The translations under genes were made by a program, and so were the position numbers. Of a DNA stretch of 48,484 nucleotides, positions 16,346 to 46,351 are shown piece after piece. Where the stretch lies: contig JAKPDW010000041.1 in assembly GCA_029552245.1 (NCBI GenBank), positions 1-48,484 on the forward strand. The letters run 5' to 3'. Within the stretch, counting starts at the first letter, position 1, and every line of letters starts with the position of its first letter. Source of the stretch: Deltaproteobacteria bacterium. Its GTDB lineage: Bacteria > Desulfobacterota > Desulfomonilia > UBA1062. The notes under the pieces are model-generated. The model saw only the letters and a program-made list of their open reading frames with translations. It had not been told where the DNA came from and searched no databases.

Positions 16346-16681
16346 AAGGCTAAGACGGCCCTCTCGCAGGGGAGAGGACCCCGCCCCATCCCGTCATGGG
16401 GCCCTTCACCGTTGGGCTCTCATGAGGGGCGGGTGGGAAAGAAAGAGGGAAAATGACCTGCAGGTTGCAACCTTGTGGGCCGGCCGCCGACATGGAGGGT
16501 GCGTTTCGCGTGGACGGGGGATCGAGGAACGGCTGTGCCTGTCGCGGGAAACGGACGTCTTGAAAGGGAGAGGCCGGGGAGCGGTCCGGGCCGGGTCGTC
16601 GCGATCGAGCCCGGCGCATGCGGGCCTTCGCCCGCGATCAGTCCGTCGGAAGGGAAAGAGGGTCATGCGTCCTTGAACAGG
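16346..16681. other. Intergenic gap after the AsmA gene
   Basis: No gene is supported. It contains a small hairpin just after the AsmA stop (CCTCTCGCAGGGGAGAGG, 16361-16378) and a perfect 12-bp palindrome AGGTTGCAACCT (16462-16473). Confidence 0.4.
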
Positions 16682-16723
16682 AAGCGGCACCCGGGCCTTC
16701 GTGGTCATGCCCGGGTGCCGCTT
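16682..16723. terminator. Strong bidirectional hairpin
   Basis: AAGCGGCACCCGGGC (16682-16696) pairs perfectly with GCCCGGGTGCCGCTT (16709-16723), a 15-bp stem with a 12-nt loop. It closes the minus-strand two-gene unit 17107-16768 (44 bases after its last stop) and could stop read-through from the AsmA operon. Confidence 0.7.
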
Positions 16724-16767
16724 TCAGAACGTGTCCCGATAAGGTGCGCCTTCTGAAGGAAGCCTGT

Positions 16768-16872
16768 TTACCTGTGAGCAGGGGCCTTTTCGACGGTCTT
16801 TGCGTGCCTTGCGAACCTGACCGTGATGGCCACGAACGCCGCGACCCCGATGGTGATGAAGAATGTCGTCAT
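16768..16872 (-). CDS. 34-residue single-pass membrane peptide
   Basis: A very short gene: start CAT at 16870-16872, stop TTA at 16768-16770. It encodes one hydrophobic helix, FFITIGVAAFVAITVRF, then a basic tail (ARHAKTVEKAPAHR), so it should insert with the C-terminus in the cytoplasm. The ribosome site GGGAGGTG lies four bases before the ATG and is strong. It follows the 59-residue membrane protein by 55 bases and both lie behind the same sigma-54 element, so they probably work together, for instance as small subunits or regulators of a larger membrane protein. No homologue is recognised. Confidence 0.6.
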   Translation of the reverse strand: MTTFFITIGVAAFVAITVRFARHAKTVEKAPAHR

Positions 16873-16927
16873 TGGGCACCTCCCTTTCCCGTCTCCCGAC
16901 GGCCCTTGTCTCGAACGTTTCCCCGTC

Positions 16928-17107
16928 TCAGCCGAGCAGGTTCATGATGAGCTGCCTGGCAGGGCCCGTGTTGATGCCGACCAGGGTGACGATCAGGATG
17001 AACACGGCGGTGGCCTCAACCGGGGTGAGCCCGAGTACCCGATAGGTGAACCTGATGCCTATACCGGTCATGAACAGGCAACCGAGAACTATCCACAGTG
17101 TCATCAT
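16928..17107 (-). CDS. 59-residue two-helix membrane protein
   Basis: Starts at ATG ATG (17107-17102) after AAGGAGGGTACGACG. Two hydrophobic helices, about residues 3-18 (TLWIVLGCLFMTGIGI) and 31-48 (ATAVFILIVTLVGINTG), are separated by a basic/polar loop RFTYRVLGLTPVE. I do not recognise a family. The 33-nt leader is consistent with initiation at the sigma-54 element at 17151-17165. It heads a two-gene unit with the 34-residue membrane peptide. Having a strong ribosome site, a sigma-54 promoter and three activator sites for such a small product suggests a conditionally expressed membrane modulator; that is inference. Confidence 0.65.
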   Translation of the reverse strand: MMTLWIVLGCLFMTGIGIRFTYRVLGLTPVEATAVFILIVTLVGINTGPARQLIMNLLG

Positions 17108-17150
17108 CGTCGTACCCTCCTTGGGTTCGTTCACTTGCACCCATGGTACA

Positions 17151-17165
17151 GCAAGGTGCATGCCA
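17151..17165 (-). promoter_or_regulatory. Sigma-54 (-24/-12) promoter
   Basis: On the minus strand TGGCATGCACCTTGC matches the sigma-54 consensus TGGCAC-N5-TTGC, with the invariant GG and GC exactly ten bases apart. Transcription would begin near 17140, 33 bases before the 59-residue gene. Confidence 0.75.
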
Positions 17166-17227
17166 GGGCTGGCTGGCTCATAACTCATTGATATCAGGGG
17201 CTTCGTGAACCCCTCGAGAGGGGAGTC

Positions 17228-17324
17228 GTGACATTTTGTCACGCGGGGGGCGTTGCGCACCGATGATGTGTACATTTTGTCACGGGACGCCTCCGCTGGT
17301 TTATGACCCGTGACAGGATGTCAC
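17228..17324. promoter_or_regulatory. Three activator-type palindromes at 41-bp intervals
   Basis: Sites: 17228-17242 GTGACA-TTT-TGTCAC (perfect), 17269-17283 TGTACA-TTT-TGTCAC (one half altered), 17310-17324 GTGACA-GGA-TGTCAC (perfect). Start-to-start distance is 41 bp both times, about four helical turns. They lie about 63-160 bp upstream of the sigma-54 -24 element, the expected place for enhancer-binding-protein sites. Confidence 0.75.
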
Positions 17325-17343
17325 AGATCGAGCCAAGGGCGGC

Positions 17344-17357
17344 GAAGAGGCCTCTTC
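17344..17357 (-). terminator. Palindrome downstream of the helicase gene
   Basis: GAAGAGGCCTCTTC is a perfect 14-bp palindrome, 20 bases beyond the helicase stop on the minus strand. It could be a weak terminator; there is no U-run. Confidence 0.3.
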
Positions 17358-17377
17358 TCACCGAGGCCGCACCGGGG

Positions 17378-18760
17378 TCAAGCCTCGGAGATCCTCACCC
17401 CGAGGTCGTGATATGCGCACATGCGGGAGTGGAAGCTGTTTCTCAGCATGGCGTTGTGGTCGAGGTAGTCGAAGATCAAGGCCTCGCGCTTGCCCTCGTG
17501 CACGCGGAGGATCCTGCCTATGTACTGCTTGACCCTGCCGGTGAACTTGATGGGCGTGGCCAAGAAGATCGACGAAAGCTGCCTGAGGTCGAAACCCTCC
17601 CCTATGAGCTGGGAGGTGGCCACCAGGACCTGCGCCTTCTCGTCGTTGAGCTCCTCCACGATCCTGGCGCGTTCCCTCACGGGCACCCCGCCGGTCAGCA
17701 GCCTCGCCTCGATGCCCCGGGAGCTGATGGCCCTGAAGAGCGTCTCGCAGTGGGAGACCCTGTCGGATATGACGAGGGATATGCCCATGCCTAGAGACGC
17801 GCGCCGATGCACGTCCTCCACGATGAGCCTGTTCCTCCTCTCGTCCGTCACGAGTGCGGCGATCATGCGCTGGTACTCGTCGGCGCTGAAGGAGAAGGCA
17901 CACCCGGTCTGCCTCACGATGAGCCGTGCGCGCATGATTCTCTTGAGCGCCTGGAGCTCTTGGGGCTGGATCGTGTGGGTGTTGTCGCCGAGGTAGAAGT
18001 GGATGAGGCTCGTGAGCTTGTCCCTGCGGTACGGGGTCGCGGACAGCCCCAGCATGTAGGTCGTGTCGAAGAGGCTCACCGCGTCCGTGAAGGTGCGGGC
18101 CGGCACGTGGTGGCACTCGTCCACCACGAGGTGTCCCACCCGCTGCCGCACCTCGCTTATGACCTTGGAGAGGGAGTTGATGAGCGCCACGGTGAGCCTC
18201 CCTCCCACCCGCCTGTGGCCGTCGCCGATGAGCCCCACCTCGTCCGGGTCGATGTCGAGGTGCTCGCAGGCCCTCTTCTGCCACTGGTACATGAGTTCCT
18301 TGGTGTGCACGATCACGAGAGCGGGCTGCCTCCTTCGCGCGATTGCAGCCAGCGCGATCACCGTCTTGCCGGCCCCCGGCGGGGCCTCGAGCACCCCGAA
18401 CCGTCGCGAAAGGATGTCCTTCAGGGCCTTGGCCTGGAAGGGGTGCAGGCTGCTCGTGAAGGTGAAGTCCACCTCGTCGAGGGCCCGCGTCCGGTCGACG
18501 AGCACGTGGGGTGTGCCCGAGAGCCGTTTCCTGAGGGTGTGGATGTACCCTCTCGGCATGATGAGGACGCCGTTCTTCCTCGTGTAGAACCTCAAGAACT
18601 CGCTCTGGAAATTCGGCCTCCTGCCCCTGCCGTAGGTCTGTACCTGTTCCCACTTGGGGTTCGGCAGGGTGAGGTCCGCCTCGATCGACATGATCGTCGG
18701 TTCGTCGAGGTCCGCCTCGAAGATCCGTACCGCGTTGTCGATATGGACGAGGACGTTCAT
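17378..18760 (-). CDS. Superfamily 2 DEAD/DEAH-like helicase
   Basis: 460 residues. Walker A APPGAGKT at 126-133, motif II DECH at 214-217, motif III SAT at 240-242, motif VI QYIGRILRVHEGKR near the C-terminus. N-terminal ~100 residues (PRGYIHTLRKRL...) precede a Q-like LHPFQAKAL. The layout matches the ResIII/XPB-like group that includes RadD-type proteins, which act in DNA repair, but the exact member is unclear. ATG at 18760 follows GGGGGAG; the extra 22 codons upstream overlap the preceding gene and lack a ribosome site. It is 13 bases after the VOC gene, so the two form a minus-strand operon. Confidence 0.86.
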   Translation of the reverse strand: MNVLVHIDNAVRIFEADLDEPTIMSIEADLTLPNPKWEQVQTYGRGRRPNFQSEFLRFYTRKNGVLIMPRGYIHTLRKRLSGTPHVLVDRTRALDEVDFTFTSSLHPFQAKALKDILSRRFGVLEAPPGAGKTVIALAAIARRRQPALVIVHTKELMYQWQKRACEHLDIDPDEVGLIGDGHRRVGGRLTVALINSLSKVISEVRQRVGHLVVDECHHVPARTFTDAVSLFDTTYMLGLSATPYRRDKLTSLIHFYLGDNTHTIQPQELQALKRIMRARLIVRQTGCAFSFSADEYQRMIAALVTDERRNRLIVEDVHRRASLGMGISLVISDRVSHCETLFRAISSRGIEARLLTGGVPVRERARIVEELNDEKAQVLVATSQLIGEGFDLRQLSSIFLATPIKFTGRVKQYIGRILRVHEGKREALIFDYLDHNAMLRNSFHSRMCAYHDLGVRISEA

Positions 18761-18773
18761 CTCCCCCGGTGGG

Positions 18774-19349
18774 TCAGGCCAGGGCCTTGTCCAGTTCTTC
18801 CAAGAGTGAACGGGCCTCTCCTGCATTGAGGAAGGCCTTCGCGGTACCGCCGCCGGGGTGCCTGAGCGTCAGGGTCACGCCGTCTCTCTCGCGCGCGACC
18901 GAGACCTTGCCCGTGCCCGGCATCCTCACCGAGGGGGCGAGCCAGTCGTCGGCGTTGAACTCGGCGATCTGGACGAGCACGCCGAAGGCGTCCTTCGGGT
19001 GGATGAAGAGCTCTTTCCAGAGGTCCCCGTACTCGGCGTACCCGAAGTACGGGACGCCTTTTCCCTCGAGGAACCGCCTCGCCGCAGCGATGTCCGGCGT
19101 CTGCAGGGTGATGTGGTGGATCCCTCCGTTGCGTCCTTTCAGGAAGTTCTCGAGGAAGGACTGTCGGCCCGTTGGGGCGATGATCTCGAACCGGCTCAAA
19201 TCCCCGAGGGAAAAGATCCGCCAGGAGTAGCCGAGCCGGTCGTCCGCCGCGGACGCGCCGGGGACGGCGCCCAGGATGTCAGTGAAGAAGCGGGATGCGC
19301 CGTCGATATCCCTGACCGCGAGAGATACATGGTCGATCCTTTCTATCAT
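18774..19349 (-). CDS. VOC-family protein, methylmalonyl-CoA epimerase-like
   Basis: 191 residues. Two vicinal-oxygen-chelate modules: IDHVSLAVRDIDGASRFF (residues 5-22) and GGIHHITLQTPDIAAARRF (75-93), the pattern of methylmalonyl-CoA epimerase/glyoxalase proteins. Predicted metal ligands are H7, E55 (RFEIIAP), H79 and Q127 (VLVQIAE); epimerases usually have Q at the second and E at the fourth position, so the two are swapped here. The last ~55 residues (KVSVARERDGVTLTLRHPGG...) are an extra beta-rich tail. Substrate is therefore open. It is the first gene of the operon with the helicase, an odd pairing. Confidence 0.8.
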   Translation of the reverse strand: MIERIDHVSLAVRDIDGASRFFTDILGAVPGASAADDRLGYSWRIFSLGDLSRFEIIAPTGRQSFLENFLKGRNGGIHHITLQTPDIAAARRFLEGKGVPYFGYAEYGDLWKELFIHPKDAFGVLVQIAEFNADDWLAPSVRMPGTGKVSVARERDGVTLTLRHPGGGTAKAFLNAGEARSLLEELDKALA

Positions 19350-19827
19350 GCGTGACCCCTTGGCTGCTGGTAGTCGAGAAGAGCCTAAGCGATGAGGCCG
19401 AGACAGTCAACGGCAAACAACCCCCTGTGCAGGTGTGCATGAAGACGGCAAGGGGTGCCGGCATCGAGACCCCATCAGGAAAGCGGGAAGGTCTCGTGCG
19501 GGAAGGCGGCCTCTCGCCGGCAGCGGCCCCAGTGGATCCAGCGGCGACTGTCTCAGGCGTGTTTCCCCTTCCCGGGAAAGGCATCCATGGGTGCGGGGCG
19601 CGAGAACAAAGCGAAGGCCGGCCCTCCTTGAACGCATGAGACGGTCGGCGCACGAGCCGGTCTCCCGCCCCGGCGCACTTGGAGCACGCAAGCCGCGGCG
19701 CACGGCCGAGCCCGCAGGCTCACGCCCCGGTCTCAGGGCATGGAGACCACGCAAACGGCGTGGAGGCGCTTTGACCTTTGGGCACGGCTTGGGCCATAGG
19801 CGCCTTGGACCAGGAAAGGCGGCGACG
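19350..19827. other. Intergenic gap
   Basis: 478 bases between the divergently placed VOC gene start and the end of the RNase Z-like gene. No gene, promoter or convincing repeat was found; open frames here carry no recognisable protein. Confidence 0.4.
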
Positions 19828-20601
19828 TCAGAGCTCGATGACCATGCCGTCGAAGGCGGGCTCGAACGCGAGGCTGCCCGTACGGGCGAGCATGGTCTCG
19901 TCCATGTGCACGATCACGATCCTCTTCGCATCGATGAGGCCCTTTTTCGAGACGAGGGTGGAGTGGTCGAGGTGGTTGGCCTTCGGGCCGTGGTAGGAGA
20001 AACACTCACAGATGAAGAGGTCCGCCCCGCGTGATGCCTCGATGAGGCCGTCGTGCCACTCGGTGTCGCCCGAGTACGCGATGACCCGCGATCCTGTCTC
20101 CACCCTCAGCGAGAGGGGGTTGCTGGCGGCCGAGTGGATCGCGGGAAAGGGGAGGATCCCCACGCCGCAGAGTTCGACCGTGACGAGCGGCCTCAGTTCG
20201 ACGAAGGACAGGGGAAACGTGACGATGGAGGTGCTGAACCCGGGAAAGAGCGTCTCCGCGAGCGTCGAGACGACCCTGCCGACACCTTCGGGGCCGGCTA
20301 TGACGAGAGGGGCCTGGCGGGCCGAGGCGAGCTGTTCCTCGAGGAGGAAGAAGGGCACGCCCCCCAGGTGGTCGCCGTGGAGGTGGCTTATGAGGATGAG
20401 TTCGACCGTGGACGGCTCGACGCCCGATCGTCTCATGGCAGGCAGCACCGCTGGGCCGCAGTCGACGAGGAAGCCCCGTTCGCCGTCTCCCACGTGCACC
20501 GCGCTCGGCAGTCTCCCCCCGCTCCCGAAGGCATCGCCGCTACCGAGAAAGGTCACCCTCGTGGGGGATCCCGTCGTTTTCTCGAGACGCGTTCTCTCCA
20601 T
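19828..20601 (-). CDS. Metallo-beta-lactamase fold hydrolase, RNase Z-like
   Basis: 257 residues. The zinc motif HLHGDH is in LISHLHGDHLGG; further ligands are AIHS, YSGDTEW and the C-terminal VIVHMDE. VTFLGSGDAFGSGGR and the overall order match the RNase Z/ElaC-like branch of the fold, but the flexible arm typical of true tRNase Z is not evident, so it may act on another phosphodiester or small molecule. The ATG at 20601 is chosen for GAGAGGAGGAGG eight bases before; an earlier ATG at 20625 would add eight residues. Nearest minus-strand neighbour is nth, 229 bases away. Confidence 0.83.
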   Translation of the reverse strand: MERTRLEKTTGSPTRVTFLGSGDAFGSGGRLPSAVHVGDGERGFLVDCGPAVLPAMRRSGVEPSTVELILISHLHGDHLGGVPFFLLEEQLASARQAPLVIAGPEGVGRVVSTLAETLFPGFSTSIVTFPLSFVELRPLVTVELCGVGILPFPAIHSAASNPLSLRVETGSRVIAYSGDTEWHDGLIEASRGADLFICECFSYHGPKANHLDHSTLVSKKGLIDAKRIVIVHMDETMLARTGSLAFEPAFDGMVIEL

Positions 20602-20830
20602 GGAGATCGCCTCCTCCTCTCTCATGTATTCCCCCGTCCGGCCAAGGCCGCGCACCGCTCTTTTGAAGAAGGCGTCTTGAGCACGCCGATGGCGCCCCGT
20701 CACCTAAGCCATGCGGCGGCAACCGCAGGGACGCGCGGTGTGCGGGGCCGCCCCGGCCTGTCCTGCTCGCCCCCGCGCGGGTGCGTAGGGGCCATAGGCC
20801 GCCTCTCATGCAATGCGCCGTAGGACCTCT

Positions 20831-45193: not shown

Positions 45194-46351
45194 GGGTGGG
45201 GCCTGTGACCACCCAGGACGATCGTACCCTCTCGTGCACGCGTTCCCTGGGGGTGGGGTGACCGCACAGGATACCTCCTCGTGGGATCCGCACGCGGGCA
45301 ATGGCCCGACCTGAAAAGGCTTTTCGCGTAATCGCCGATGTCGAGGGACCTGGATGCGGGCTGGGACCCTGCTGTCTGACGAGTGACTCTTCCAGGAGAC
45401 TTTGGTCCGCCTCTCGAGACCCGTCCTGTGCATGGGGGCGCTCGGTGATCCAGGATGCCGGCGAAAGGGTGAGGTATGTCAGTCGGATGTCCCGACTCTT
45501 CAATAATGCCCCCTTCTCGCTCGAGAGAAATGCCCCCGTGGGAGAGGTCTGGGAGGATGGTCTACCTGGTGTGTAAACTCAAGAGGATGGGGCACGGGAA
45601 GGCCCGCCCGGTGGATATGATGCCCAGGGTCTCGGCGGCGAACCCCAGTGTGTATACTTAAAGGTTCGGGTAGGCCCGCCTGGGGCATGTCCGGGGACCC
45701 GGTCGTACAGGGTGACCGCAGGGAGAGGGCCAGTCAGCCGGGCGAGGGGCCTTGAGAAGATATAAAAAAGGAAGCAGCCACGGGGCTGGGGTACGTCGCC
45801 CACTGCGTCGGCACGCCAGGCCATCTCGGGGAGGGTATCGGGGGAGCGGCCACGGTCCCGGTCTGGACAGGTCTCTCGCGGGCGAGGCCGTGCGCGCCTG
45901 GATGATCCGGTCTCATCCCGCGCGATAGACACCGAGGCCGCGCTGCCAGGAAACCCGAGTCCCATGGCACCGTGGATGACCCAGGTTGACCGAGCTCGTG
46001 GTATCAACCGGGGATTATTATATTGTATGTCGTGCCATGCCCATGACCAGGGGTCTCCTGGACTGGCGCGCCTACAAGGGGTGGGGCATGATGAGGCGGC
46101 ACCAAAGGGTATCCCCCAGGTCCTGCTGAACGGGCCCTGAGTCATTGAAATCTTTTTCCTCTTCAGCGAGGGAAAGAACTTTCACTTTACCCATGGGTTA
46201 TAAGGGTCATAGAGCATAACCTATTGAGAAATTGATGGGATTTGGGGCCTCCACCCTGTGGCATGTTTATTGCTCGATGGTCTGACGTATGACCATTCGC
46301 CACGCATCGACGAGGGCAACAGCTGACGCAGTTCCTGTTTCAGGGAGATGA
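45194..46351. other. 1.16-kb gap with AT-rich right end
   Basis: No gene is supported. It contains a repeat pair (45569-45687). The last ~200 bases (46140-46350) turn AT-rich (for example CCCATGGGTTATAAGGGTCATA near 46190), where the promoter of the next gene probably lies; no box pair is convincing. Confidence 0.45.
45569..45687. repeat. Direct repeat pair, period about 72-79 bp
   Basis: GTGTGTA-ACT-AA (45569 and 45648) and GGCCCGCC (45601 and 45673) recur in the same order, with a small length difference between. Confidence 0.5.

Follow-up and report, generated by a model that had tools for sequence, protein, structure and literature searches.

On the minus strand of the window, which here means the whole analysed stretch of 48,484 nucleotides from a Deltaproteobacteria bacterium of the UBA1062 lineage, a small operon encodes two tiny membrane proteins, pep1 and pep3, behind a sigma-54 promoter with three putative activator sites, and the same control design is found at every complete copy of the operon in the family. 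From its sequence conservation, this control architecture is near certain to be real. The role of the operon is proposed more tentatively: at a probability of about 0.4, both for the reading as a whole and for the synthase as the target, it would be a dedicated sigma-54 switch whose small membrane proteins, jointly with AtpZ-like factors, target the F1Fo ATP synthase.

All elements of the window operon, namely the -24/-12 box, the three palindromes, the two ORFs and a hairpin, lie on the minus strand. The box TGGCATGCACCTTGC, recognised by its sequence pattern at 17165-17151, bears out the sigma-54 promoter called in the earlier note, and transcription would be expected to start at about 17140; sigma-70 boxes, which that note had raised as the rival, are not seen: a scan of 16600-17400 for sigma-70-like sites came back empty. 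Upstream are three activator sites, putative from sequence and conservation: a distal site 1, GTGACATCCTGTCAC (17310-17324), an imperfect middle site 2, GTGACAAAATGTACA (17269-17283), and a proximal site 3, GTGACAAAATGTCAC (17228-17242), which fall on about the same helix face. The exact 41-bp steps first reported between them hold in the window, but in relatives the steps are 40-44 bp. Between sites and promoter, where IHF had been suggested to bind, an IHF-like site TATCAATGAGTTA (17181-17193) agrees at 9/9 consensus positions and occupies the stretch from 28 to 16 bp before the TGG in the -24/-12 box. The reading frames were likewise correctly recognised: pep1 (17107-16928, stop codon included; ORF with homologues) is a 59-aa membrane hairpin protein, and pep3 (16872-16768, stop codon included; ORF) is a 34-aa single-helix membrane protein, each preceded by a good, GGAGG-type ribosome site. 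The strong hairpin said to end the unit is present downstream of pep3 as a GC-rich structure at 16723-16682 (z -4.8), but it is without a U-run, a terminator scan returned nothing there, and it is not a canonical intrinsic terminator.

Taken alone, the two full sites in the window are unremarkable: 0.63 full palindromes are expected in 48 kb by chance, and at least two occurred in 11 of 100 shuffles. It is because of conservation in the upstream regions of homologues, and not because of window statistics, that the sites are regarded as real. Three TGnCA-N3-TGnCA sites stand upstream of pep1 in 46/46 complete upstream regions, the last of them about 60-65 bp (~63) from the promoter, and all 46 copies keep a TGGCA[CT]-N5-TTG promoter whose last base is A instead of C in some sublineages; peptides and palindromes are thus conserved together in relatives, the point that the earlier note had proposed to check. 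The interval between sites and promoter usually holds a match to the IHF consensus, a putative bend site, which reaches at least 8/9 positions in 31/46 regions (shuffles: mean 2.8, maximum 8); its distance upstream of the TGG is nearly always 28 or 27 bp. When 60 genomes, 24 of the window's family and 36 of other families, all of them uncultured assemblies, were searched with a pattern combining the promoter and the proximal site, 22 family genomes (own included) and 0/36 other genomes matched, with 0 matches in a reversed control. A contig-edge pep1 copy in a further genus shows the same promoter design.

The pep1 protein itself follows the same distribution. Its 52 strong matches fall in 22 of the 24 family genomes (own included), at one to five per genome; a 23rd family genome holds the contig-edge pep1 fragment mentioned above, and the family genome without a match is 78% complete. 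The 36 genomes from other families yielded no strong match, and the only assemblies that came up in a scan of the genome collection were of Deltaproteobacteria type, with UBA1062 and UBA6087 among these. Purifying selection on pep1 is shown at the sequence level, with a mean column identity of 78% and a median dN/dS of about 0.15 among unsaturated pairs. Neither pep1 nor pep3 matches a Pfam family, and the assignment of pep1 to a known Pfam or NCBIfam family gave nothing convincing. AlphaFold predicts pep1 as a helical hairpin (pLDDT 85), for which Foldseek returned no fold match at E <= 0.001. The pep3 proteins (of L040, L047 and other copies) resemble the first helix of pep1 at E about 0.01 to 1, as if pep3 were half of the same protein. 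No earlier description of either protein was found in the literature searched, which agrees with the novelty that the earlier note had supposed. Small size, membrane helices and several copies could also suggest hydrophobic, toxin-like peptides as in type I toxin-antitoxin systems; however, the operon usually has three genes, elaborate positive control and very strong conservation, and 16600-17400 offers no sigma-70-like site from which an antisense RNA could start, so that a toxin role is very improbable.

Where the two peptides had been taken for the whole unit, comparison of the copies revises the picture: the usual gene order is pep1, an AtpZ-like gene (about 79 aa) and pep3 (about 35 aa), the latter two often overlapping. 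The middle gene is present in most copies and belongs to PF09527 (45.9 bits for a sister copy and 42.9, 42.1 and 32.6 bits for others, against a cut-off of 26.6). The sister copy lies in the same genome, at C75, with all three genes and three sites. In the window copy the AtpZ-like gene is absent, with only 55 nt from the pep1 stop to the pep3 start, and the gene is also missing in three other copies of the window's genus and a few elsewhere; from these comparisons the window copy appears to be a reduced paralogue of the three-gene operon. A tandem pair of pep1 genes under one control region, without an AtpZ-like gene, was seen at L048:1722-2089.

The neighbours of the pep operons differ between genera, and apparent amino-acid ABC transporter genes stand upstream of several copies. 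This variation by genus, together with a pep3 size and layout like those of one-helix accessory peptides generally known, would suit small subunits that assist or modulate some other membrane complex or a transporter, with reuse of the AtpZ-like fold, an idea that must be called quite improbable given that no neighbouring complex is constant across copies. Two pep operons often flank a cluster (L040, L041, L047; window 17378-20703), which can contain metallo-hydrolase, SDR, glyoxalase-like and helicase genes; the window operon comes after the helicase gene.

The pairing with an AtpZ-like gene can itself be read in two ways. Pfam describes PF09527 as a putative Ca2+/Mg2+ transporter, and atpZ of an alkaliphilic Bacillus supports Mg2+ acquisition (PMC4453477), from which an uptake or channel complex of AtpZ-like protein, pep1 and pep3 for Mg2+ (or Ca2+), induced by ion scarcity, could be proposed. 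Against it, several copies, the window's included, are without the AtpZ-like gene, and the predicted hairpin gave no Foldseek match at the threshold stated above. Sigma-54 control of Mg2+ uptake would also be unusual as far as is generally known, and the cation module is distinctly unlikely. Three observations suggest the alternative, action on the F1Fo ATP synthase: the AtpZ-like identity of the usual partner, a second sigma-54 operon in which a 91-aa homologue of pep1 is likewise accompanied by an AtpZ-like gene, and the c subunit as the top non-family hit when whole genomes are searched with pep1. As in the known AtpZ/ATPase_gene1 (PF09527) pairing with AtpI, the middle gene of most pep copies is a PF09527 member, and the order atpZ-atpI-atpB occurs elsewhere in the same genome. 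Unlike atpZ of atp operons, the AtpZ-like copies lie outside atp operons, with pep1 before, pep3 after and sigma-54 in control, and the window copy has no such gene at all. The content of the operon points more specifically to the synthase than to the stress- or nutrient-triggered membrane modulator first imagined.

The homology of the 91-aa protein to pep1 is given by hhalign (E 1.6e-6, probability 90%). It has a signal-peptide-like start, several copies of its family (L077-L084) stand behind a sigma-54 box of their own with different upstream motifs, an AtpZ-like gene follows it in several genomes, and in two genomes it directly follows an NtrC-type activator. A sigma-54 box also stands in front of a paralogous ATP synthase c subunit with a signal peptide (L215 around 1500, reverse strand; G000:C49 at about 105.6-106.0 kb); this arrangement is conserved in G004 and G009, and both rpoN and a related activator lie a few kilobases away from the gene. 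Canonical atpZ-atpI-atpB genes occur separately, as does an N-ATPase-type operon. In one genus only does a pep operon lie near an atp operon: at G009:C22:11181-18593 it is about 5.5 kb from canonical atpZ-atpI-atpB and c-subunit genes. A wider reading would join the second sigma-54 operon, of 91-aa and AtpZ-like proteins, and the sigma-54-driven spare c subunit into one programme with the pep operons, which is doubtful.

The resemblance of pep1 to the c subunit has been weighed separately. With the pep1 profile against five whole genomes, c subunits were the top non-family matches in four (E 0.045-0.12); Glu31 of pep1 aligns on the ion-binding Glu of the c subunit, and scores against a c-subunit profile exceed those of segment-wise shuffles (fraction about 0.0007). 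Among fetched loci, which were chosen for similarity, a transporter-like segment of other genomes outscores the c subunits. At family level pep1 is unsupported as a true c subunit, with no PF00137 match at E up to 1 and an hhalign probability of only 2.3% against c subunits. Because of these two results and the better-scoring transporter-like segment, the relation is to be considered a lead and not a finding. A further comparison is AtpTheta of cyanobacteria, a small regulator of the F1Fo ATP synthase that prevents ATP hydrolysis in unfavourable conditions (PMC9241938). The pep proteins are likened to it by small size and proposed target; host, control and operon context differ. A literature search for sigma-54 together with AtpZ found nothing related.

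In the window's genome, fixed-pattern scans found 29 strict sigma-54 boxes against 4 in a reversed control, and one copy of RpoN is encoded (E 1.3e-62). Since the activator sites occur upstream of only the two pep operons and at no other strict box, the sigma-54 regulon looks dedicated to them. One of the other strict boxes, TGGCATGTTTATTGC, is in the window at 46259-46273 on the plus strand, ahead of an ORF starting MMKRCNERGLYTLVATLAAVV. A site with one mismatch at C70, where a probable glycosyltransferase gene begins, was taken as chance. The genome encodes about 20 activators, and no activator gene lies beside any copy of the operon in the flanking DNA covered, at most about 5 kb. The earlier note had suggested tracing the activator through its own gene carrying the same site, which did not succeed: a scan of 45 activator loci did not find the motif in any. 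Shared orthologues did not decide the assignment either: the small genome G009 yielded 13 activators, and for 11 of them the window's genome contains a reciprocal best match.

Two known sigma-54 systems may be compared. In the NorR-norVW system, norR adjoins its target. At norVW of E. coli, three enhancer sites upstream of the sigma-54 promoter scaffold the NorR oligomer (PMC2941729). The pep operon likewise places three putative activator sites ahead of its sigma-54 promoter; its activator is unlinked, its site is TGnCA-N3-TGnCA and its products are small membrane proteins, unlike those features of NorR-norVW. The psp operons combine sigma-54, an activator, an IHF site and small membrane proteins, and the sigma-54 box, IHF-like site and small membrane proteins of the pep operon recall them. 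An envelope-stress module of the Psp kind, in which membrane damage or loss of proton-motive force would be sensed and the small proteins would stabilise the membrane, with the ATP synthase not the target, draws on this likeness, and the high copy number and unlinked activator would suit a general stress response. It is nevertheless unlikely, as the usual partner is AtpZ-like, no operon protein matches the PspB or PspC family (or any other Psp family), and no activator gene adjoins any copy; the restriction to one bacterial family and the several copies per genome are also unlike psp.

If the pep operons do serve the F1Fo ATP synthase, a signal would be sensed by an activator encoded away from the operon, and three activator dimers, by analogy with NorR, would assemble on the three sites into an active hexamer. 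IHF may bend the DNA between sites and promoter, allowing sigma-54 polymerase to produce a burst of small membrane proteins. These may then act on the synthase, through assembly of the c ring or through restraint of its activity, which would help a bacterium living near its energy limit. For want of an AtpZ-like gene of its own, the window copy would add to the supply of pep1 and pep3 while depending on the second copy for the AtpZ-like protein.

Two membrane-protein families with no earlier characterisation emerge from the analysis, together with a three-site sigma-54 regulon that is apparently dedicated and is kept at every complete copy across a whole uncultured family. UBA1062, a family of Desulfomonilia, has been described as potentially syntrophic (PMC13248872), and the host organisms probably live by syntrophy, a way of life in which cells manage minute energy yields. 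If the link to the ATP synthase is true, these bacteria would switch the cell's main energy machinery at the level of transcription.
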